A DNA stretch of 64,000 nt from Gigantopelta aegis (lineage: Eukaryota; Mollusca; Gastropoda; Neomphalida; Peltospiridae): the NCBI RefSeq assembly GCF_016097555.1, contig NC_054706.1, positions 29,590,775-29,654,774 of the forward strand. Direction: 5' to 3'. Positions 43,520 to 53,404 of the stretch are shown in pieces. Both the position numbers and the translations under genes were made by a program. The notes below the pieces were generated by a model that was given only the letters and a program-made list of their open reading frames with translations, searched no databases and had not been told where the DNA came from. Numbering within the stretch: position 1 is the stretch's first letter; each line of letters begins with the position of its first letter.

Positions 43520-43576
43520 GCTTCTTTTACGTCCGCCTGACTGCTATAAATAACAATGACTCATTGTATGACGTCA
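43520..43576 (+). promoter_or_regulatory. Core promoter: TATA box and CRE
   Basis: TATAAATA at 43545-43552 and a perfect cAMP-response palindrome TGACGTCA at 43569-43576. The stretch CTTCTTTTACGTCCGCCTGA just upstream resembles CTTTCTTTCGCGTCGGCACT at the other sperm-protein gene. Transcription should begin near 43575, so the CRE would overlap the start. Confidence 0.75.
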
Positions 43577-43612
43577 TTCTTTTTTAACTTGTTGGAAACG
43601 GAAAACATCAAA

Positions 43613-44002
43613 ATGAAAGAACCGCGATCGCGATCAATTTCTCCCCGATCCGGGTCCCAACCACGATGCCAAGCTGTGTCCAGATCACGAACTCGATCAA
43701 GAACTAAGTCTCCGGTCGTAATGGTAGAAGCCAAGCAGAGTAACAGAGGTCCCCTGAAAGGCAGATCCAGGAGCCGAGGTCGTTCGAGGGGCAGTAAGCG
43801 AAAGAGATCTCAAAGCAAAAAGTCTAGATCTCGTTCAAAGAAACGAAAGCGAGGAGCCAGCTCCAAAAAAAGGAAAGGCGGGAAAGGAAAAAAGAAAGGA
43901 GGGAAGAAAGGCGGAGAGCCAGCAGCGAAGCCAAAAGGAACTCCCAAGACCGCGAGTGAAGGAACTGAGTCCACCACTCCCACAGAGGAAAAGACCGAGT
44001 AA
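43613..44002 (+). CDS. Protamine-like sperm nuclear basic protein without a winged helix
   Basis: A 129-residue intronless frame. Residues 1-35 are RS-rich (EPRSRSISPRSG, SRSRTRSRTKSP), 48-80 alternate RS and RK (GRSRSRGRSRGSKRKRSQ), 81-105 are almost only K and G, and 118-129 form an acidic tail (ESTTPTEEKTE). No globular domain is visible. The earlier in-frame ATG at 43556 lies about 19 bases before the expected transcription start, so 43613 is preferred. The TATA box, CRE and histone-type 3' end match the H1-like gene at 52699, and the two proteins share RS and KKGGKK styles. It probably compacts sperm DNA in the nucleus. An SR splicing protein is the alternative, but no RNA-binding domain is seen and the histone 3' end argues against it. 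Confidence 0.78.
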   Translation: MKEPRSRSISPRSGSQPRCQAVSRSRTRSRTKSPVVMVEAKQSNRGPLKGRSRSRGRSRGSKRKRSQSKKSRSRSKKRKRGASSKKRKGGKGKKKGGKKGGEPAAKPKGTPKTASEGTESTTPTEEKTE

Positions 44003-44069
44003 GAACATGGGAGGACGATGATTGCGGAATGTAGGCATGCCTGCAGGAAGCAATCAACACAATTCACAA

Positions 44070-44107
44070 GGCCCTTTTAAGGGCCACCTACATCTCACGA
44101 ATGAAAG
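44070..44107 (+). terminator. Histone mRNA 3' stem-loop and downstream element
   Basis: GGCCCTTTTAAGGGCC (44070-44085) folds as a 6-bp stem with loop TTTA, preceded by CACAA and followed by ACC, as in replication-type histone mRNAs bound by SLBP. GAATGAAAG at 44099-44107, 13 bases later, is where the U7-pairing element is expected. The hairpin starts 67 bases after the stop codon. Confidence 0.93.
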
Positions 44108-44129
44108 CTTATACCTCTTCCAATACACC

Positions 44130-44300
44130 AACTTTATATGAATAAGAATTTATTTACGTAACACCCTTGTATGGGGCAGCGTAATAACCATGATACGGCC
44201 TATACATTTATATACAAGAATAAGAATAATTTATTTGCATAACACCCGAATATGGGCAGAGCAAAAATAACAATATAATATACATTTATCTGCAGTAAGA
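44130..44300 (-). mobile_element. LINE-like 3' end, two partial copies
   Basis: Minus strand: GTTATTACGCTGCCCCATAC, GGGTGTTACGTAAATAAATT; a second, weaker copy follows (GCTCTGCCCATATTCGGGTG). Another is at 46975-47055. Confidence 0.5.
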
Positions 44301-44810
44301 ATAACATAAATATACATTAATTACATGAACAAACATCTGAATCAACAAATACATATGTAATTTAAGCCTTATTACTAGTGATATTAATATTTAGGTAAAA
44401 GCAAATATTGTCAGAAGTGTACAGCACAATAACATGTTCCAATACATCAACGTTATAAGAATTTATTTGCGCAGGCCCGTATTGGGGAGGGGGGGGGGGT
44501 TCGTCCGAACCCTCCCGCAAACGTTGTTTAGGACTCCCCTTCTCCCCTTATCAAAGCTATACAATGTACATTATTCAGAATTCTAACTAATCTGGCAAAA
44601 AAAAAATTATAATAAAAAATAAACAACCCAAAGGAATCTACATGATTGTAGCAAAAATATTTAATTGTACTTTCTTCTATATTGATGACCTCGTAGTATT
44701 CGATAATTAAATAACAATGACAGCAGTTCTCCTTCCATTGATTTATTATTCAAAGAAATACGAGGTTAACAACAGCAAGTAATCCTGTTAGGTCAGGTCA
44801 GATTATAGGT
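44300..44810. other. No gene; G run at about 44487
   Basis: CAGGCCCGTATTGGGGAGGG and CCCTCCCGCAAACG surround a G run. Otherwise AT-rich. Confidence 0.45.
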
Positions 44811-44813
44811 TTC

Positions 44814-44940
44814 AACGTGCACATTCAGAACAAGCTGTTGTAGCACACGCCTGTCATGGGCGCAGGTGTCGACTTTGGCCGGCTCCACCATGCAGGACAG
44901 GAAAAGGTTTCGGGTGGGTCAAACTGGGGGTCAGAAGAGA
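44814..44940 (-). repeat. Type D dispersed repeat
   Basis: AACGTGCACATTCAGAACAA, GCTGTTGTAGCACACGCCTG is the reverse complement of the right end of 13317-13482. Confidence 0.8.
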
Positions 44941-45247
44941 ACACAAGCAGCCCGACCAGGGTCGGTAATACGCGAGGGTTGGTGTTGGTGCTATTGAATT
45001 TGCAAATATCCCGTAGGATTAAAGCCAAATAGAAAATGCTGCGTAATTTTTAAGGTAATTTTGACGTATAATTTAGAATGATTCATCATTACTGAAAATG
45101 GAGCTAATTGGTTGATTTGACTTAGTTGATCGAAAGGTAGCTTCTGTCGAAAACTCCTTATCTTTATATAGAGATTCAAATCGTCACTGGCTTCTATATT
45201 TCTATATATATTAAGAATATTCCAGCGTCGGATTATGCTTTAGGTAA

Positions 45248-45269
45248 GGGGGGGGGGGGGGGGGGGGGG
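45248..45269. repeat. Pure G run
   Basis: 22 G after GCTTTAGGTAA. Confidence 0.95.
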
Positions 45270-45279
45270 TGTTCCAAAA

Positions 45280-45895
45280 CAATATGTAAATGTTTATAAT
45301 TTGAAATTATAAATTTTATGTGAATATCAATTCAGATCTACGTGGTGGGGTTGGGTTTGTTAGCCAGGGGGTGGGCGTGCAACTGGGGAAACGGTTATTT
45401 CAAGTATTTCGAATCTGTTTATGACCAACATGTAGATGCCACTTTGATGATATGACGCGTCAGTGACACAAATGAAATGGGATGCAATACCTTATGCTGA
45501 AAACGTTTGAAGACTGCAACTGTAAATCTACTTATAACAGGGGCTGCATGATACACAATTTTAAGAACGTTATTGTTTCATTTTTCACAAATATGTTCAT
45601 CATTAAAGGAACTGATTATAGTTCTGACGTACACGTACCTTTTTTGTTTGTACGGTTATACTAAGCAGTTGACATAAATATTTAAAATATACATCGGGTC
45701 AATACCCGGAATTCCTGTTGTGTGGTAGAATTTCATTATCTTGAATTTTAAAAATAAAAAATAGCCTTAATAGCAAAAATATAATCTACAAAATAGTCGT
45801 AAATCGTTTGGTTTAAAATATCATTTTTCAAATTCCAGATGCCAGGAAAACGCGTTCTAGGCTGTCAGAGGTTTCATAATTTCCAGGGAACAACA
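45280..45895. other. No feature seen
   Basis: AT-rich, no exon or family repeat. Confidence 0.45.
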
Positions 45896-45897
45896 AC

Positions 45898-46285
45898 AAA
45901 AAAGAAATGTTTTATTTAACGACGTACTCAACACATTTTATTTACGATTATATGGCGTCAGACATATGGTTACGGACCACACAGATATTGAGAGAAGAAA
46001 CCCGCTGTCGCCACTTCATGTGCTACTCTTTTCGAATTAGCAGCAAGGGATCTTTTATATGCACCATCCCACAGATACGGTAGTACATACCACGTTCTTT
46101 GATATACCAGTCGTGGTGCACTGGCTGGAACGAGAAATAGCCCAATGGGCCCACCGACGGGGATCGATCCCAGACCGACCGTGCATCGAGCGACAATCTA
46201 ATTAAAATTAGCTCCACTATTACATGTGGATCTAACAGCAGCCAGTTGAAGCTCATGTCCACCAATCAAAACCTTACTTGCAGAA

Positions 46286-46342
<57 letters not shown>

Positions 46343-46918
46343 ATGCCAGTTATTTAAAAATAATTTGAAAACATTCCGAATTATCCTGAGGGTATACATG
46401 TTTCGTGTGAATTACGAATGCCGTAAAACATGTTTTATTTTATAAAATAAATAATTTGTAATGTAAAACTGAAGACTGATAACCCATCCCGTACGTATTG
46501 GTATGGTTCGCTGTACTGCGGCCACTAAAATAGACTCGCCCGATATTTTTAGAATTTGTATGCTCCCAAATAACGTTATAAAAGGCGAAGGTTGACTGGT
46601 CAATATTTAAATTATTATTTACAGACGAAATGTTACCTGGACATTGGAGACTACGCAGTGTTGTTAGCAATCTGATTAAAATTAGTTCTACTGGTCTAAA
46701 TAAGGCATTCGTAATTCACATGAAACATATCGTATACCCTCAGGATAATACGGAATATTTTCAAATTATTTTCAAATCACTGGCATGATTCTGCAAGTAA
46801 GGTTTTGATTGGTGGACATGAGCTCCAACTGGCTGCTGTTAGATCCACATGTAATAATGGAGCTAATTTTTATTAGATTGATCGAGCGAGCGCTTTACCA
46901 CTGGGCTACGTCCCGCCC
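45898..46918 (-). mobile_element. SINE type A' split by a foldback element
   Basis: The tail and body lie at 45898-46193 (AAAGAAATGTTTTATTTAAC to CGTGCATCGAGCGA). The head resumes at 46890 (GCGCTTTACCACTGGGCTAC, GTCCCGCCCC). Confidence 0.94.
46194..46880. mobile_element. Foldback / MULE-like element, 687 bp, 9-bp duplication
   Basis: Two arms of about 170 bp mirror each other: CAATCTAATTAAAATTAGCT, ACATGTGGATCTAACAGCAG, CATGTCCACCAATCAAAACC, TTGCAGAAT at the left and their complements at the right, ending TTATTAGATTG. ATCGAGCGA occurs at 46185-46193 and 46881-46889. Long arms with a 9-bp duplication fit Mutator-like or foldback elements. The middle (about 46430-46690) has no transposase. A 56-base C run (46287-46342) interrupts the left arm only. 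Confidence 0.92.
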
Positions 46919-47242
46919 CTCCAGAGAACATGCCCCAGCAAATACCTAGTCGAACCCTCCCACTCAAAATGCTGGCTACGGACCTGTTTGCATTACACCC
47001 TTATATGGGGCAGAGTAATAACCATAATAGGGCCTATACATTTATATACAGCACAATAACATATATATTCCCATTTCAGTTTTAAAATACATCCGCTGTA
47101 CTCTTTATGGATTAGTCAGGGCACACTCACATTAGCCAAAGTAGGATACTCTGACCAATTCAGTTAGTGTATTGCCCAATATCAAATAATCTGGTGTCAG
47201 CAAACAGATATAAGAATGATATAACATCAATAACAACAACAA

Positions 47243-47515
47243 ACCCCCCCCCCCCCCCCCCAAAAAAAAAAAAACCCCCCAACCCAACCCAATAATAATA
47301 ACAATATTAATGTACAGGCTAGACGGAGACACAAAATTTGTATTCTATTTATAGGACTACAATGACTATATAGCCCATAGGCGTGACCAGAATTTTATAT
47401 GGGGGGGAGGGACCCACTATGTATGTGTGTATGGTTTTATAAAATCTAATACAATAAAAAAAAAAGTGCTCATGTGCTCTCCCCCCCCCCCCCCCCCCCC
47501 CCCGCTACGCTACTG
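47243..47515. repeat. C/A/G homopolymer cluster and a type E element
   Basis: C run then A run at 47245-47275. From 47378, GGCGTGACCAGAATTTTATA, GGACCCACTATGTATGTGTG, GGTTTTATAAAATCTAATAC, a C run (47480-47503) and GCTACGCTACTGA form a type E copy. Confidence 0.65.
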
Positions 47516-47627
47516 ATATAGTCTAATAAATAAAGTATTTTTATAAAAATGAAATGGTCGAAGTACTTGGATATATATTAAATTACTGCCCCACTGATAG
47601 CCGGAACAAGAACTTTACAATAAAATG

Positions 47628-48000
47628 TTAATACATGGTTAGAATTTCAGTATCACCATTATTGTATGACATAATTAATATAAATTGTAAATTGCTATCA
47701 ACAGTCGAAAAGTCGGAAAAGGAGTTTAACGTATCAAATAGTTGTTGCCTTTCAGCAAAATAAATAGAACAGTCTAAAATAAAATGTTGTTAATTTTCCA
47801 CAGCTTGGGAAATATAAACAAACAAATCCTCATTTTAATTAGTTTTTAAGGTTTACATAATCCCCCATATGATGATAGAAATTTGATGTCCAGAGCAGTT
47901 AGCTATCCAATTTAAACTCTGATTTGAATACACTGTATATTCTGAGTTTAGAATCATTGTTTAGAATAGTAGCCTATCCTACCTGAATTTTATTTATTTC
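47628..48000 (-). pseudogene. Decayed LINE ORF2 3' end
   Basis: On the minus strand 47628-47790 reads QHFILDCSIYFAERQQLF, then DTLNSFSDFSTVDSNLQF and a stop, preceded by VEN and an in-frame stop. The H-F-x-x-D-C pattern with following ERQQLF is the C-terminal zinc-knuckle region of many non-LTR reverse transcriptases. Farther upstream (about 47900-47960) LRIYSVFKSEFKLDS resembles the stretch usually preceding it, in a broken frame. This is a dead LINE remnant. Confidence 0.65.
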
Positions 48001-48054
48001 GACTGGAGTTCTAGTTTTTAACTTACGTGTATCTCTTTGAGGGTATTGTCAGAA

Positions 48055-48110
48055 GAGAACAGAACAGAACTCTATTACACTTAGGGCCATCGTTCGATGG
48101 AATTTGAGGA
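48055..48110 (-). mobile_element. LINE-like 3' end (GTTCTGTTCTGTTC tail)
   Basis: Minus strand: CGATGGCCCTAAGTGTAATA, GAGTTCTGTTCTGTTC. Similar to 8355-8440. Confidence 0.5.
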
Positions 48111-48114
48111 ATAT

Positions 48115-49015
48115 ATATATACACAGTGTAACATTTACAACTACATGTATATACAAATGTAATTCATATATTTAGCATACATGTACAATTCAATTAATTA
48201 TTATTGTGTCACCTTCCAATTATGCAATAATTTAGTCGTGAGGTAATTAGGGGCTCGCAAGCAGACCAATAAGCGTGAAACTAAATTACACCAATCAAGA
48301 ACACTTAAAGGGCCGATTTCATATGTCTGGGTTATCAATGTGTTTTGGAAACATATGGGTTAAACCTAGGATAAACCCTGGGTCATGTTTACTGTGCATT
48401 TCACGTGTTAGTTTTTCAATAACCCTAGTTTAACACTGGGTTACAATTGTATTGCTTGTACCTGCCCTTGAGGTGGGTTTTTTTTTTGCTGAGTTTGCAA
48501 GGCCGTACCCCGAGAATCTCACTTTTTTATATATATAAAACTCCAAAAGAGCAACTAAAATCACTGCCTAAAAATTAGTAATTTTGCTATTCAGATGCCA
48601 AGAAATCGTGTCTACGGCTATGTAAATAAAATAAAATAAGAATTTAATTCTTGGGTTATAATACCACGCCAAATAATCCTTAAAATAGTAAACAAATTAT
48701 TATTTAAAAATGGTTAATTTTGCTAAACGTTTTGGCACGTGCACAACAACCATGACTATGCCTTCTTAACGGGTGAGGTCTGGTGTATTTACGGTCATGT
48801 GAATAAAATAAACCCTCCGACGGGTCTGCATTTGCATACCGTGATATTTAGTACAATCATTACTAGACTATAGTAGATGACCCAGTATGACGTAGGTATT
48901 TTATACGTAAAATATATATGCCCTAATTAACCTAGCATAGCCATGATTTTATATTGGGAGTGGGACCCATACTATATACCCATACCCATATATCTATTAA
49001 TGTATGAATATCTAT
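48115..49015. other. No feature seen
   Basis: AT-rich, no exon; a short repeated GGGTTAAACCTAGG / AACCCTAGTTTAACACTGGG inverted motif near 48355-48450 is the only structure. Confidence 0.4.
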
Positions 49016-49019
49016 ATAT

Positions 49020-49344
49020 TGTATGGATGTCGAGGTTGACTGTTACATACATAGATAGTAACGCACTGGCGCAGGGGATAATTAAATCCTTTCTGGCCTC
49101 ACAAATTGTCCCATGCTGTTGCTGGGACTCGAACCTATGGCACCGAATCGTATTGTATGTATGTCGAGGTTGACTGTTACATACATAGATATTAACGCAC
49201 TGGCACACGGGATAATTAAATCCTTTCTGACCTCATAAATTGTCCCATGCCGTTGCTTAGACTCGAATCTGTGGCACCGAATCACCCGCAAATTGCAGAG
49301 TCAAATGCAGACTAACCATGATGCGCTCTGAGCTATTGAGGCAT
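49020..49344 (-). mobile_element. SINE, type I, with its body duplicated in tandem
   Basis: Minus-strand head TGCCTCAATAGCTCAGAGCG with A-box- and B-box-like parts (GATTCGAGTCTAAGC), then a 134-bp body repeated twice; the second repeat carries GGTTCGAGTCCCAGC. GTCGAGGTTGACTGTTACAT marks each copy at 49029 and 49163. Confidence 0.75.
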
Positions 49345-49532
49345 CCATAAAAAAAGATGCTCTTTAACTCAACCACATGCATGGGGCCTTATGTATGCAT
49401 CATGTTATACAAATTTAATAGTTAAAAAAGGTTTGGTTGGGTGGGGGATTGGAGCATGGCGTCCTTGTTCCCCATCACTGCGTACTCTTTCAATATATTT
49501 ATTCAAAACAGTTACCCGTGTTATATATTTGG

Positions 49533-49790
49533 ACGGCCCATTGGGCTATTTCTCGTTTCAGCCAGTGCTGCACAACTGGTGTAACAAAGGCCGTGGTATG
49601 TACTATCCTGTCTGTGGAATGATTCATATAAAAGATCCCTTACTGCTAATCGAAAAGAGTAGCCCATGAAGTCGCAACAGCGGGTTTCCTCTCTTAATAT
49701 CTGCGTGGTCCTTAACCATATGTCTGGCGCCATATAATCATAAATAAAATGTGTTGAGTGCGTCGTTAAATAAAACATTTCCTTCCGTCC
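49533..49790 (+). mobile_element. SINE type A', 5' truncated
   Basis: Starts at GGCCCATTGGGCTATTTCTC and runs to AAATAAAACATTTCCTTCC. Complete tail. Confidence 0.93.
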
Positions 49791-49870
49791 TTCCTTTATT
49801 GGACGGTGTAAAATAAATACAGCAGAGTAGCCTACTCGGGTTATATATTAGTACGCCATTTAGCCATGCT

Positions 49871-50020
49871 TCTCACAAACAGGATAGCACATACCACGGT
49901 CTTTGATATACCAGTCGTGATGCACTGGCAGGAAAGAGAAATAACCCAATGAGCCCAGAGACGGGGATCGATCCCAGATCGATAGCGCATCAGCGGACCA
50001 CTCATCACTTGGCTACGCCC
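49871..50020 (-). mobile_element. SINE head fragment
   Basis: Minus strand GGGGCGTAGCCAAGTGATGA to CCTGTTTGTGAGA; only head and first third are present, ending in a C run. Confidence 0.8.
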
Positions 50021-50260
50021 CCCCCCCCCCCAAAAAAAACCCCTATAAAGACAGGCACGGTGGAGAGCAGGGGGCTCTAGTCTCTCCCCCCTCCCCCCTC
50101 ATAATTTCGAATAAAATATATTGGTAGTAAATCTTAAAGCAGAGATGAATTTTACTTGTAGAATGCAGGAAATTGCATTTCAGGACATCTAGTTTTCCAA
50201 ATTGTTAAAATGAGCATACCTCGAACCCCCTAGAAAGTTTGCTTTGCGCCTTCGATCTCA

Positions 50261-50286
50261 GTCACACACACACACACACACACCCG

Positions 50287-50342
<56 letters not shown>
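50261..50342. repeat. (CA)n microsatellite
   Basis: Two CA tracts split by CCCGT. Confidence 0.97.
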
Positions 50343-50344
<2 letters not shown>

Positions 50345-50345
<1 letters not shown>

Positions 50346-51075
50346 GTCTACTTGCTTCCGCCGTGCCCGAAAGACCTGTACTTGGTCCTCTTACAACAGT
50401 GACTTTTATAATATTTGTCTAGAACTTCATTTCTGGTGTGAACTAATACACATTTTACATCTAGTCATGTGTATTGTATTCGTCCAGCACATCACAAGGT
50501 CAATATTTAAGATTTTATTTGGAGACTTACAAAATCCACAGGTCTATAGATCATAAAAGTTAAGTTGAACGCCAAACGATCATATCAAAACACCATTTCA
50601 ATATTCTATAGAAATTGGGACAACCTAGAACACTGGATACACAGAAATCAATATTTAAGTTGGAAGTTTCAAATGTAGGTAGACCTACATTGGTTTTAGC
50701 CGTCTATACAAATACATTTTACCAACTATACTCTTTAAAAAAAGTAGGGGAACTCTAATAAGAATTTACAATTGCCCAAATTGTAAGGTATATTAGCTGT
50801 GGGGAATGGTTATATGATAATAGTGAATTAATTGGGAAAACATTATAACCGGTAGTTCAGTATTACAGTAGGTTTTATGACCAGCAAAGATCTTGAAGGA
50901 CAAATGGGGTCAGAAGTGAATTTTGAAAATTGACGTGTTTTTTTATCAGTAAATCGCAAATTCAAACAATAAAAATTACTAAAAACAAAACAATAACAAC
51001 TGTATGATCAACAGAATGAAAAAGATTGACAGAAATAATGTTCCACAGTGATTAATGGACCTTCCTGGAAATGGT
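50345..51075. other. No feature seen
   Basis: AT-rich. AAAAAGTAGGGGAACTCTAA at 50739 is echoed, inverted, by GGTTCCCCTACTTTTTTTTT at 51641, a possible pair of element ends about 900 bp apart around the SINE. Confidence 0.4.
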
Positions 51076-51090
51076 CAAAATCGAGAATGA

Positions 51091-51489
51091 AAAAAATAAA
51101 GAAAGAAGTGTTTTATTTAACGACGCACTCAACACATTTTTTTTAAATTTACGGTTATATGGCGTCAGACATATGGTTAAGGACCACACAGATTTTTTTA
51201 GAGGAAACCCGCTGTCGCCACATAGGCTACTCTTTTACGACAGGCAGCAAGGGATCTTTTATTTGCGCTTCCCACAGACAGGATAGCACAAACCATGGCC
51301 TTTGTTGAACCAGTTATGGATCACTGGTCGGTGCAAGTGGTTTACACCTACCCATTGAGCCTTGCGGAGCACTCACTCAGGGTTTGGAGTCGATATCTGG
51401 ATTAAAAATCCCATGCCTCGACTGGGATCCGAACCCAGTACCTACCAGCCTGTAGACCGATGGCCTGCCACGACGCCACAGAGGCCGTT
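51091..51489 (-). mobile_element. SINE type A with target duplication
   Basis: Tail AAAGAAAGAAGTG at the left, head CGGCCTCTGTGGCGTCGTGG at the right. AAATCGAGAA is at 51078-51087 and 51490-51499. Confidence 0.96.
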
Positions 51490-51886
51490 AAATCGAGAAC
51501 GACACCCCACGCACGTGTACGGGGAACTGGGTGATGCATGTGCAAAATATGAAATGTGTTTCGGTGTGTTGATAAAGAGACCTGAACGTCAAAACGTATG
51601 TTCAGTTTAATAGTTTATATTAACATTAATATTTCAGGTTCCCCTACTTTTTTTTTTTAAAGAGTATATATTTATATAACAAACTAGCCTATTACATATA
51701 GACTGTTATAATAAAGTTGTATCTCGTTTAATAATTATATTTTATAAATTTGAACAATTGTGTAAATCACATAAATATATCTATGGATTGGAACGTTTTT
51801 AATTCAATAAATGTTTTGGGGATTTAAATTCTAAAACATTTGTGCACGTTTAGCAACTATGTTCATTAATGTAACATGTATAGTAA

Positions 51887-52050
51887 CAGGGGCGCTGCGT
51901 GATCTGGACCTGGGGGGGGGGGGGGGGGGGGGGGGTCGAATATGAACCAAGTGGACCTTTTTCTATTTTGTTTTTGCACCACCAGAAACTCCATATGTAT
52001 AAACCTGTATGTTTTAGTTCTGCTAGCGGACCCCCTAGCCTACGCCCCTG
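51887..52050. mobile_element. Type E-like short element with G run
   Basis: CAGGGGCGCTGCGTGATC, a G run (51913-51935), and GGACCCCCTAGCCTACGCCC, CTG. The ends mirror each other loosely. Confidence 0.6.
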
Positions 52051-52054
52051 AGTA

Positions 52055-52620
52055 GGCCTATAAGAAATATGTTTAATTAAAATAAGTTTACATCCATTTA
52101 TAGGGCTCATATATTATTGTTTGTTTCCGCAATAAATAAAGAACAAAATATCGGAATACTTGATATAGACCAAAATCTGAGTTTTTAAAAAAAAACGTTA
52201 CAGACCTAACTTGTTTTATGTGCATGCGTACGGTGCTATTATGTGAAATATATTATTAACATACAAGCCTGCTCTCTGGAGTTTAGTTTTTAATTGTTAT
52301 TCATAGTGTTCTGGGATATGTTGGTAAATATTAAACAATGCTAGTTTAAATTATTGTTACAAATATGAATATTAATCATGCAGTTAGGCGTACATGACCG
52401 TTCTAAAGTGCTTTATTAACAATTTCTTGAATCAGTACTTTTATCTGTTGTGAAAAAAAAGACAACAAACGGGACGTCAAAATATCTCAAAACTACTTTT
52501 AACTGATTTTTTTAAAGTAATATGATATTCATAAAGTTTTAATTATTATGATAGTTTACAGAAAAACACACATGAATTAAAATTAACATTTTGACGTCGT
52601 TTTTAACAGTAGCAGCGTGT
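52055..52620. other. No feature seen; upstream of the H1-like gene
   Basis: AT-rich and free of recognised repeats. TTTTGACGTCGTTTTTAACA near 52590 is a partial CRE-like site. Confidence 0.45.
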
Positions 52621-52621
52621 G

Positions 52622-52673
52622 TGCTTTCTTTCGCGTCGGCACTGCACAGGCATAAATAGGGCCTATGACGTCA
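52622..52673 (+). promoter_or_regulatory. Core promoter: TATA-like box and CRE
   Basis: CATAAATA at 52651-52658 and a perfect TGACGTCA at 52666-52673. The upstream string CTTTCTTTCGCGTCGGCACT aligns with the promoter of the gene at 43613. The expected start is near 52680, giving a very short leader. Confidence 0.75.
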
Positions 52674-52698
52674 ACAATCACATAATCCAAACTTAAAA

Positions 52699-53343
52699 AT
52701 GACCGGTTCAAGACGCTCTAGATTGCGTTCGAGATCTAGTCGATCACGATCGCGATCGCGATCTAGGTCCCAAAAATCTATACCGATGTCCCGATCTAGG
52801 AGAAGTAGGTCTAACCGATCTAGCACCAGGTCAATGGAGAATGCAATTTCTCGCAGATCTCGACAACCTACTTCGTCTGTGGAACTACCATCCACTATGG
52901 TCCTAAAAGTAATTGATGCAATCACTCAGGACAAGGATATGAAGGGATCATCTCTTCAGACGATCTGCAGACGAATTGCAGCCGATTATAAGGCTATGCC
53001 TGTCAAACTGCTGAATGGACAAATCAAGAAGGCGATTATCAAGGGACTCAGCAGAGGATTTATAGTTCGTCCAAGAGGCTCGAAGGCCAAGGGTACCGTT
53101 GGACGCTTTCGCCTTGGGAGGATCCCTATTTTAATGGAATCTCATCGTTACTGGTCACGTGGAAAGGCAGACAATGACGATGATGGCGACAGCAAGGGCA
53201 AATCCCATAAAAAACGTAAACGCAGTAAGATCAGTAAAAAGGGAGCCTCAAAGAGCAAGAGCCGAGGTCGCAGCAAGAAACAAAAAGGCAAAAAGGGCGG
53301 CAAGAAATCAAAGTCGCGCAAACAAAAGAAAGGCCGAAAGTAG
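52699..53343 (+). CDS. H1-family protamine-like sperm protein with RS-rich N-terminus
   Basis: A 214-residue intronless frame. Residues 1-57 are RS-rich (LRSRSSRSRSRSRSRSRSQK). Residues 63-141 form a linker-histone winged helix: MVLKVIDAITQDKDMKGSSL, QTICRRIAADYKAMPVKLLN, GQIKKAIIKGLSRGFIVRPR, then GSKAKGTVGRFRLG, matching the family pattern of three helices and a basic wing. An acidic spacer (DNDDDGD, 158-164) precedes a K-rich tail (165-214). This architecture is that of mollusc protamine-like PL-I proteins, which pack sperm chromatin; that role comes from the family. The 3' end is histone-type. The codon run CGATCACGATCGCGATCGCG behind the RS repeat shows slippage-prone growth. A somatic H1 is less likely, because somatic H1 lacks a long RS N-terminus. 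Confidence 0.92.
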   Translation: MTGSRRSRLRSRSSRSRSRSRSRSQKSIPMSRSRRSRSNRSSTRSMENAISRRSRQPTSSVELPSTMVLKVIDAITQDKDMKGSSLQTICRRIAADYKAMPVKLLNGQIKKAIIKGLSRGFIVRPRGSKAKGTVGRFRLGRIPILMESHRYWSRGKADNDDDGDSKGKSHKKRKRSKISKKGASKSKSRGRSKKQKGKKGGKKSKSRKQKKGRK

Positions 53344-53368
53344 GCCAGATTACAACCACAATTACAAA

Positions 53369-53404
53369 GGCCCTTTTAAGGGCCACCAACCCTCCCGAAT
53401 GAAA
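53369..53404 (+). terminator. Histone mRNA 3' stem-loop and downstream element
   Basis: GGCCCTTTTAAGGGCC at 53369-53384 with flanks TTACAAA and ACCAAC; GAATGAAA at 53397-53404, 12 bases later. The hairpin begins 25 bases after the stop. It is identical to the one at 44070, and the sequence before it (ACCACAATTACA here, AACACAATTCACA there) is also alike. Confidence 0.95.

Follow-up and report, generated by a model that had tools for sequence, protein, structure and literature searches.

Two intronless genes with histone-type 3' ends

The window, the whole stretch of 64,000 nucleotides of the Gigantopelta aegis genome that was analysed, holds two intronless genes. Each has a TATA-type box, TGACGTCA, a histone-type hairpin and, 12-13 nt later, GAATGAAA, an architecture described in a first-pass annotation and confirmed by the coordinates:

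43530..43536, + strand: gene 1 promoter box CGTCCGC (inside TTCTTTTACGTCCGC)
43545..43552, + strand: gene 1 TATA box TATAAATA
43569..43576, + strand: gene 1 TGACGTCA, CRE-like, 3' of the TATA box
43613..44002 including the stop, + strand: gene 1 coding sequence, 129 aa, RS/K-rich, without a winged helix (class B)
44070..44085, + strand: gene 1 histone-type 3' hairpin GGCCCTTTTAAGGGCC (RF00032, 33.6 bits)
44099..44106, + strand: gene 1 histone downstream element-like GAATGAAA, 13 nt past the hairpin
52634..52640, + strand: gene 2 promoter box CGTCGGC, a variant (CGTCCGC in the paralogs L054 and L055)
52651..52658, + strand: gene 2 TATA-type box CATAAATA (TATAAATA in L054 and L055)
52666..52673, + strand: gene 2 TGACGTCA
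52699 (ATG)..53343 including the stop, + strand: gene 2 coding sequence, 214 aa (class A)
53369..53384, + strand: gene 2 histone-type 3' hairpin (RF00032, 36.7 bits)
53397..53404, + strand: gene 2 histone downstream element-like GAATGAAA, 12 nt past the hairpin

The TGACGTCA of gene 1 probably lies at about the expected transcription start. The start codon of this gene was taken as the ATG at 43613 and not the in-frame ATG at 43556, which lies a few bases past the TATA box and 5' of TGACGTCA; L053, L072 and L073 have no equivalent of this upstream ATG in their frames.

Gene 2 encodes an RS-rich N-terminal tail, a winged helix (Pfam match at residues 71-139) and a K/R/S-rich C-terminal tail, and is rich in both arginine (16.4% of its 214 residues) and lysine (15.9%). 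The H1/H5 winged-helix model PF00538 matches it at 5.4e-13 (49.4 bits, cut-off 22.4), its top PDB sequence match is the linker histone 'Protein B4' (5.5e-10), and a relative carries the source name 'sperm-specific protein PHI-2B-like [Gigantopelta aegis]'. A winged-helix alignment search, in which 7,988 candidates were scored, matched the Gigantopelta proteins P0001-P0003 as well as P0004, a 234-aa protein with the source 'lgn' (1.1e-6). A low-confidence AlphaFold model made with four sequences (mean pLDDT 46.8) predicts helices at 64-78, 86-96 and 102-114. The one NCBIfam match to gene 2 (15.1 bits, where the cut-off is 255) was at chance level and was discarded. On sequence grounds, gene 2 is a linker-histone/protamine-like protein, and its earlier placement in the linker-histone family is upheld by the PF00538 match and the PHI-2B-like relative.

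The 129-aa gene 1 protein, whose C-terminal end is E/T-rich, matched no Pfam domain; its identification as an SR splicing factor was rejected, as an RRM beside the RS domain is absent. A word-based search of the protein set returned no homologue of gene 1 at E <= 0.1 among 7,991 candidates scored.

The hairpin, its downstream element and the promoter

The hairpins of both genes are perfect, with a 6-bp stem and a 4-nt loop. Allowing up to 3 mismatches, the window contains 4 hairpin matches (two sites, each on both strands); shuffles averaged 0.40, and 0 of 100 had as many as 4. Gene 2 scores above the Rfam Histone3 gathering score of 34, and gene 1 falls 0.4 bit short of it. The hairpin alone is nevertheless weak evidence and was rejected as such, because the 16-mer has 336 copies genome-wide (control 0) and all 10 of the loci inspected, the first ten listed and all on contig C1, are repeats: each resembles one or more of the other nine across the hairpin, and in several pairs the similarity starts at or beside the hairpin. 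The genome also contains another repeat, in which a GDSL-lipase-like frame is paired with a histone-type end.

It is the combination of hairpin and downstream element that is distinctive. In 1.15 Gb the hairpin is followed by GAATGAAA at 8 sites (control 0), all of them on C8, a chromosome-scale contig that makes up 7% of the genome. The earlier reading of the 3' ends of both genes as histone-type is sustained. A looser form of hairpin and element occurs 41 times, 39 of them on C8 (control 0), and the 3' end typical of the family is the hairpin followed by the purine-rich GAATGA(A/G)A. A search with PF00538 alone gave 14 winged-helix genes. In 8 of them the hairpin follows within 160 bp of the stop, and in 2 more it lies farther downstream; with no hairpin inside 160 bp in 6 of the 14, some of these genes may be polyadenylated. 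The count of 21 tabulated genes with a hairpin is to be read with the fact that 13 of them are hairpin-ascertained (12 found through the hairpin, and gene 1, which was given with it). L083, an intact class F-like frame behind a promoter, has no hairpin in the stretch read. The U7 snRNA model RF00066 had no match in the genome, nor did it match any control genome; a second U7 specific to the germline was considered and dropped.

Canonical H1 genes with hairpins occur in the same genome (GGCCCTTATCAGGGCC...CACGAAAGTG in 14 loci), which could suggest that the genes described here are ordinary replication-dependent linker-histone duplicates accompanied by chance low-complexity RS/K frames. This we regard as highly improbable, as the canonical H1 loci differ in both loop and element and sit on other, small contigs, and as the gene 1 class is kept across four copies.

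The promoters likewise follow one design. The CGTCCGC box or a one-base variant is present in 24 of 27 tabulated family genes, the distance from box to TATA (start to start) is 16 or 18 bp in 23/23 genes having both, and an ACGT/CRE-type site is often found near the start, with an exact TGACGTCA within 150 bp upstream in 11/27. A genomic search for TTYYDTTRCGTCCGC with a TATA close behind returned 26 distinct sites, 24 of them on C8 (control 2); the pattern was derived from the tabulated genes, which account for 17 of the 26 sites, and of the 9 new ones 8 are on C8 and 1 is on C12. Eight of the 26 have no looser hairpin match; two of these belong to winged-helix genes already known, L062 and L063, and the remaining six, judged by eye, are all family members or relics. 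A narrower pattern, TTACGTCCGC...TATAAA, proved noisy and was set aside (18 matches, 13 on C8 and 1 on C6, against 12 in the control).

A cassette family on one chromosome

Genes 1 and 2 appear to be members of a cassette family with several dozen copies, some intact and others decayed, of which almost all lie on C8. The typical cassette has its own compact promoter, an intronless frame and a histone-type 3' end. The family includes 13 winged-helix genes of 213 to about 1,200 aa, the longest of which, L049, has a C-terminal tail of about 1,030 residues, and 4 intact copies of the winged-helix-less gene 1 class; other members encode either short basic proteins or small ones of weak or no basic character. 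Left out of the winged-helix count were L059, which by eye we take to be KAT6-like, L064, an exon-like frame, and L067, a 99-bit H1-like gene at 40.85 Mb without a hairpin. What had been called a small cluster is, instead, a family that extends over tens of Mb of one chromosome. The earlier observation that winged-helix and winged-helix-less kinds stand side by side remains valid and recurs at two other places on C8, so that in three places, the window pair included, a gene of the gene 1 type has one of the gene 2 type 7-9 kb away.

Many of the cassettes have decayed or short, uncertain frames (L068-L071, L077-L079, L084 and L086-L088), and part of the cassette count therefore does not represent functional genes. 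The gene 1 class (B), with a pN/pS of 0.65 over 4 copies (95% bootstrap 0.47-0.90), is by this measure under purifying selection. The values for class E (0.95) and class A (0.75) have intervals that reach 1, such that constraint is not significant.

The decayed copies, together with a tandem array of cassettes at 28.91 Mb, are also what might be expected if the cassettes were a mobile element carrying small genes with a histone-type 3' end. Similarity within class A and within class B spans about 1-1.5 kb and stops within about 100 bp of GAATGAAA, and the GDSL-lipase-like repeat offers a second pairing of a frame with such an end. We consider a mobile element quite unlikely, however, given that confinement to one chromosome is unlike the spread of genome-wide elements, that the class D copies L056 and L057 are similar over longer stretches than members of class A or B, and that the gene 1 class is under purifying selection.

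The kinship of gene 1

According to the first-pass annotation, one gene of the pair kept the winged helix and the other lost it or never had it. Derivation of gene 1 from a winged-helix gene of the C8 family, through loss of the winged helix, would be consistent with the promoter design that the two genes have in common, with their common 3' flank (CACAATT, then ACAA before the hairpin) and with the three neighbouring A-B pairs on C8. Proteins were compared by local shuffling for all B-A, B-C and B-E pairs in a chosen set (4 class B, 5 class A, 5 of 9 class C and 4 class E sequences), the criterion being 12 or fewer of 300 shuffles. Class B passed this level against the long-tailed winged-helix class C in 5/20 pairs, and the class E protein of L074 reached 5 of 300 against gene 2, both of which speak for a loss. 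Against gene 2's own class A, however, only 1/20 pairs passed, whereas 16/16 did so against the short basic class E; gene 1 and gene 2 themselves gave 34 and 20 of 300 in two runs. At the DNA level the gene-to-gene matches listed include none that links class A with class B, and the sole B-E match, L072-L082 (2.7e-9), spans the promoter plus the beginning of the RS part and therefore does not settle coding descent. The claim of a lost winged helix is thus unsupported, and we hold such a derivation to be doubtful, if still conceivable.

A putative germline chromatin set

The directly observed part of the explanation proposed here consists of the architecture, the concentration on C8, the intact frames and the purifying selection on the gene 1 class. 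Judging from the sequences, we think it probable that the cassettes, a family near-confined to C8, form a co-regulated germline chromatin set that turns over fast, probably acts in spermatogenesis and has non-polyadenylated messages. SLBP and the U7 snRNP would cut the messages a few bases past the hairpin, yielding mRNAs without poly(A) tails, and a single germline programme, most likely spermatogenesis, would switch on the whole set. The products of gene 2 and of the long winged-helix genes may bind nucleosomes or DNA in the manner of linker histones while their tails condense chromatin; the short basic proteins, that of gene 1 among them, would be their winged-helix-less partners, and the small proteins that are not or weakly basic may take part in the same programme.

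The germline set could instead be a maternal/embryonic or primordial-germ-cell linker-histone set. Frog B4/H1M is a maternal/embryonic linker histone, and 'Protein B4' is the best PDB sequence match of gene 2; histone-type ends would fit storage and the rapid S phases of cleavage stages. An oyster PHI-2B/PHI-3 gene is described as peaking in primordial germ cells and as broad in early embryos, beyond sperm (PMC12551290). The RS/K-rich tails, the fast divergence and the PHI-2B-like name nevertheless suggest, by analogy, sperm nuclear basic proteins, and we judge the maternal or embryonic reading unlikely. More tentatively, and with more doubt than confidence, C8 may carry a germline regulon restricted to that chromosome. 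Several protein families (winged-helix protamine-likes reaching about 1,200 aa, basic proteins that lack the winged helix, and small proteins with hardly any basic character) would then have a common promoter and SLBP/U7 histone-type 3' end. Their amplification and decay would reflect genetic conflict, brought about by sex linkage or suppressed recombination of C8 or of its 20-31 Mb part.

Sperm packaging proteins evolve fast, and the route from linker histones to protamine-like proteins in molluscs is an open question. Here, one genome has many winged-helix, long-tailed and winged-helix-less copies with one promoter design and mostly one type of 3' end, and birth, change and decay can therefore be read from its sequence. 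The family further suggests a use of histone-type 3' ends by a whole set of non-histone and even hardly basic proteins. Such messages would escape RNA-seq with poly(A) selection. This may be one cause of the missing protein-set match of gene 1, beside low complexity and the word-based search.

Comparison with known systems

Like replication-dependent histone genes, the C8 cassettes are intronless and have a TATA box, a hairpin and a purine-rich downstream element; unlike them, they encode protamine-like and small, hardly basic proteins, and hairpin loop and element set them apart from the canonical H1 loci of the same genome. The male-specific stem-loop histone variants of Oikopleura are described as testis genes whose stem-loops are conserved and which are co-regulated as clusters (PMC3156773), to which the C8 family, with its presumed germline expression, can be likened. 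In that account the Oikopleura variants are core histones whose transcripts have poly(A) signals and no downstream element, unlike the C8 cassettes (PMC3156773). Sperm nuclear basic protein genes of Drosophila are reported to be amplified on sex chromosomes, and amplification and decay concentrated on particular chromosomes are features that the C8 family shares with them (PMC9917458). Histone-type 3' ends and a common promoter are traits of the C8 family not met in that Drosophila account (PMC9917458).

In protein layout there is a likeness to mollusc PL-I/PL-II (PHI-2B), the H1-derived sperm nuclear basic proteins, as gene 2 similarly joins a winged helix to K/R/S-rich tails. Compared with bivalve PL-I/PL-II, the present family belongs to a gastropod, has 13 copies on one contig and its own promoter box, and includes the C-terminal tail of L049. 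Mussel PL-III, or PHI-1, lacks a winged helix, and winged-helix and winged-helix-less protamine-like genes are already known to coexist in mussels. By description, gene 1 is like PL-III, the gene for which is mentioned for mussel (PMC5550673), in being short, basic and winged-helix-less in a genome that also has winged-helix protamine-like proteins, and it differs from PL-III in its E/T-rich C-terminal end and its class E kin.

The gene pair

The pair of genes reported in the first-pass annotation is real, with gene 1 and gene 2 running through 129 and 214 uninterrupted codons, respectively, and both carrying a TATA-type box and TGACGTCA.

Genes of the pair (window coordinates)
43613-44002, + strand: gene 1, RS/K-rich protein without winged helix (class B)
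52699-53343, + strand: gene 2, winged helix with basic tails (class A)

The hairpin GGCCCTTTTAAGGGCC is present in both genes and is followed by GAATGAAA, 13 nt downstream in gene 1 and 12 nt downstream in gene 2. The gene 2 hairpin scores 36.7 bits with the Rfam Histone3 model, above the gathering score of 34, and that of gene 1 falls slightly below it (33.6 bits). In databases, the gene 2 protein (P0001, 185 aa) lacks its first 29 residues (window 52699-52785), and the protein of its class A relative L055 (P0002) lacks its first 28; both L054 and L055 conserve the upstream ATG of gene 2 along with the promoter.

Histone-type 3' ends across the genome

The pair had been taken for a small cluster, but searches with the 3' end, the promoter and PF00538 indicate that it is a sample of a far larger set on one chromosome. 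The hairpin 16-mer by itself is not diagnostic and has 336 genomic copies (control 0). Ten of these loci were read (the first ten listed, all on contig C1); each resembles one or more of the other nine across the hairpin, and in none does GAATGA occur in the 60 nt that follow the hairpin. Hairpin plus GAATGAAA gives 8 genomic matches (control 0), all on C8, a contig of 81,591,406 bases that makes up 7.1% of the 1.149 Gb genome. The published genome description gives 1.15 Gb in 15 pseudo-chromosomes (PMC7895826). A looser pattern (both loop letters allowed, followed by A and, 8-18 nt on, by ATGA) gives 41 matches genome-wide, 39 on C8 and 2 on C6 (control 0), counts that gauge concentration and not separate events since the paralogs are mutually non-independent. 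On C8, 37 lie at 20.3-30.7 Mb, one at 52.4 Mb and one at 53.5 Mb. As this pattern was modelled on genes already known, it matches those genes by construction, but its near absence outside C8 is not by construction. The Rfam Histone3 search of the genome gave at least 67 matches, at least 24 of them over the gathering score and at least 15 of those on C8, all lower bounds because 75 of 306,794 candidates were scored; one of 14 control genomes gave a match, below the cut-off.

Two repeats carry the same hairpin. In L002:964-1560 and L009 (C1, 7.68 and 28.67 Mb; copies 67% alike over this part), a GDSL-lipase-like frame, seen in L002 (PF13472, 8.6e-12), stops shortly upstream of the hairpin, which is followed by GAAAGTGA, as at canonical H1 ends. 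The L002 end belongs to a group of 16 Histone3 matches, spread over 10 contigs, that all score 32.7 bits, a pattern suggesting that this repeat is a mobile element with a histone-type 3' end. In L003, L005, L008 and L010, a dispersed repeat, similarity starts at the 16-mer or no more than about 10 bases from it, and GGCCCTTTTAAGGGCC is followed by, for example, CCTATGGGCAACC, without the downstream element; this repeat may account for many of the 336 copies.

A common promoter

Members of the set share an upstream element, TTCTTTTRCGTCCGC or a near variant, followed by TATA. Of 27 tabulated genes, 25 of them on C8, 24 have the box or a variant differing at one base; 23 have box plus TATA, always with a start-to-start spacing of 16 or 18 bp. 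An exact TGACGTCA occurs in the 150 bp upstream of 11 of the 27, and 21 have the hairpin no farther than 160 bp from the stop. Genome-wide, the pattern TTYYDTTRCGTCCGC with TATA 4-24 nt further on gave 34 rows, equal to 26 distinct sites (control 2): 24 on C8, one on C6 (a class E gene) and one on C12. The tabulated genes from which this pattern was derived make up 17 of the 26, leaving nine new sites (8 on C8, 1 on C12). Eight sites have no looser 3'-end match, namely the known L062 and L063 and six fetched as a test; judged by eye, each of these six is a family member or a relic.

Promoter sites fetched as a test
L083: class F-like frame, 80 aa; no hairpin within the stretch read
L085: class D copy; imperfect hairpin
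L084, L086, L087: decayed
L088 (C12): winged-helix gene, broken

Winged-helix genes

The PF00538 profile search gave 43 matches. Canonical H1 accounts for 13 at 106.1 bits, on small contigs and often several on one; canonical ends (GGCCCTTATCAGGGCC...CACGAAAGTG) were seen in 14 of the fetched loci. C8 has 16 matches, 13 of them protamine-like (213-1,198 aa), and one further protamine-like gene, L066 (195 aa), lies on C9. An H1-like gene (L067) and two exon-like matches (L059, L064) were left out. These 14 winged-helix genes were found independently of the hairpin, which nevertheless follows the stop by no more than 160 bp in 8 and lies farther downstream in L051 and L062 (about 0.6 and 1.1 kb).

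The tails of L049 (C8:20.31 Mb, 1,198 aa) and L050 (C8:20.88 Mb, 1,174 aa) consist of numerous short repeats rich in K, R and S. The only PF00538 match in L049 is close to the N-terminus, and no hairpin was found in the 7.5 kb read for L050. L066 (C9:39.14 Mb) and L065 (C8:45.69 Mb) have TGACGTCA 60 bp upstream of the ATG, with no CGTCCGC box within 150 bp and no hairpin in the stretch read, and may represent an older branch whose 3' end is of another kind.

Short proteins, kinship and selection

Classes B, D, E and F were located through the histone-type 3' end.

Short protein classes
Class B: gene 1, L053, L072, L073; 121-142 aa
Class E: L074, L075, L082 (C8), L076 (C6, the one of two hairpin matches there that was read); short basic, 101-115 aa, EARRRRRENN-like motif
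Class D: L056-L058; 67 aa, acidic and basic residues roughly equal in number
Class F: L080, L081; 86 and 95 aa, weakly basic

The remaining cassettes have short or uncertain frames only. In L068 (C8:28.911-28.919 Mb), 12 or more units with the hairpin follow one another in tandem at intervals of about 400-870 bp, with 12 looser 3'-end matches and short frames only in the 1.8 kb read.

Protein kinship was assessed with 300 shuffles preserving local composition, a pair being counted at no more than 12/300. Classes D and F are related (0/300 in both pairs tested); one protein of each had no Pfam match. Class B and class E were counted in 16/16 pairs, whereas class B reached 5/20 with the long-tailed winged-helix class C (5 of 9 members used) and 1/20 with class A, making class E the clearest kin of gene 1. 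Gene 1 against gene 2 gave 34/300 and 20/300 in two runs; between E and A, L074 with gene 2 gave 5/300 and L082 with L054 111/300. The proposal of a protamine-like pair holds in part: the pair is real and gene 2 is protamine-like in type, but these shuffles do not bear out loss of the winged helix in gene 1, and classes B and E may or may not descend from a winged-helix gene.

Gene 1 is not a decaying remnant, given that the pN/pS of class B is 0.65 (bootstrap 0.47-0.90). The values for the others are 0.75 (0.55-1.04) for class A (gene 2, L054, L055), 0.31 (0.06-1.44) for D, 0.95 (0.65-1.40) for E, 0.60 (0.36-1.15) for F and 0.87 (0.67-1.14) for L062/L063.

A gene 1-type copy adjoins a gene 2-type copy at three places, and a fourth (26.268 Mb) has no gene 2-type partner among the looser 3'-end matches.

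Class A-class B neighbors
Window: 9.3 kb apart, same strand
22.659/22.666 Mb: 7.2 kb apart, divergent
23.135/23.142 Mb: 7.7 kb apart, divergent

Similarity inside class A and inside class B covers about 1-1.5 kb and stops within about 100 bp of GAATGAAA; in class D copies it extends over longer stretches.

Mechanism and known systems

The anatomy, the concentration on C8, the common promoter and 3' ends, and the constraint on class B are established. SLBP/U7 would process the messages of the set, which would be without poly(A), the genes would be co-expressed in the germline, likely in spermatogenic cells, and the winged helix with its basic tails would condense chromatin.

Literature searches, mostly without subscription journals, found no paper on Gigantopelta and protamine together and no title describing such a set for protamine-like stem-loop genes or, among the matches listed, for gastropod protamine-like expansion or non-histone genes with histone-type ends. 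The nearest frame for the C8 set is the mollusc H1-derived protamine-like proteins. Histone-type ends on mussel PL genes were reportedly described by Eirin-Lopez and colleagues in 2006. Further sources give PL-II/PL-IV as well as PL-III sequences in a mussel (PMC5550673), stem-loops on testis histone genes of Oikopleura (PMC3156773), and, in Drosophila, SNBP genes amplified on sex chromosomes (PMC9917458).
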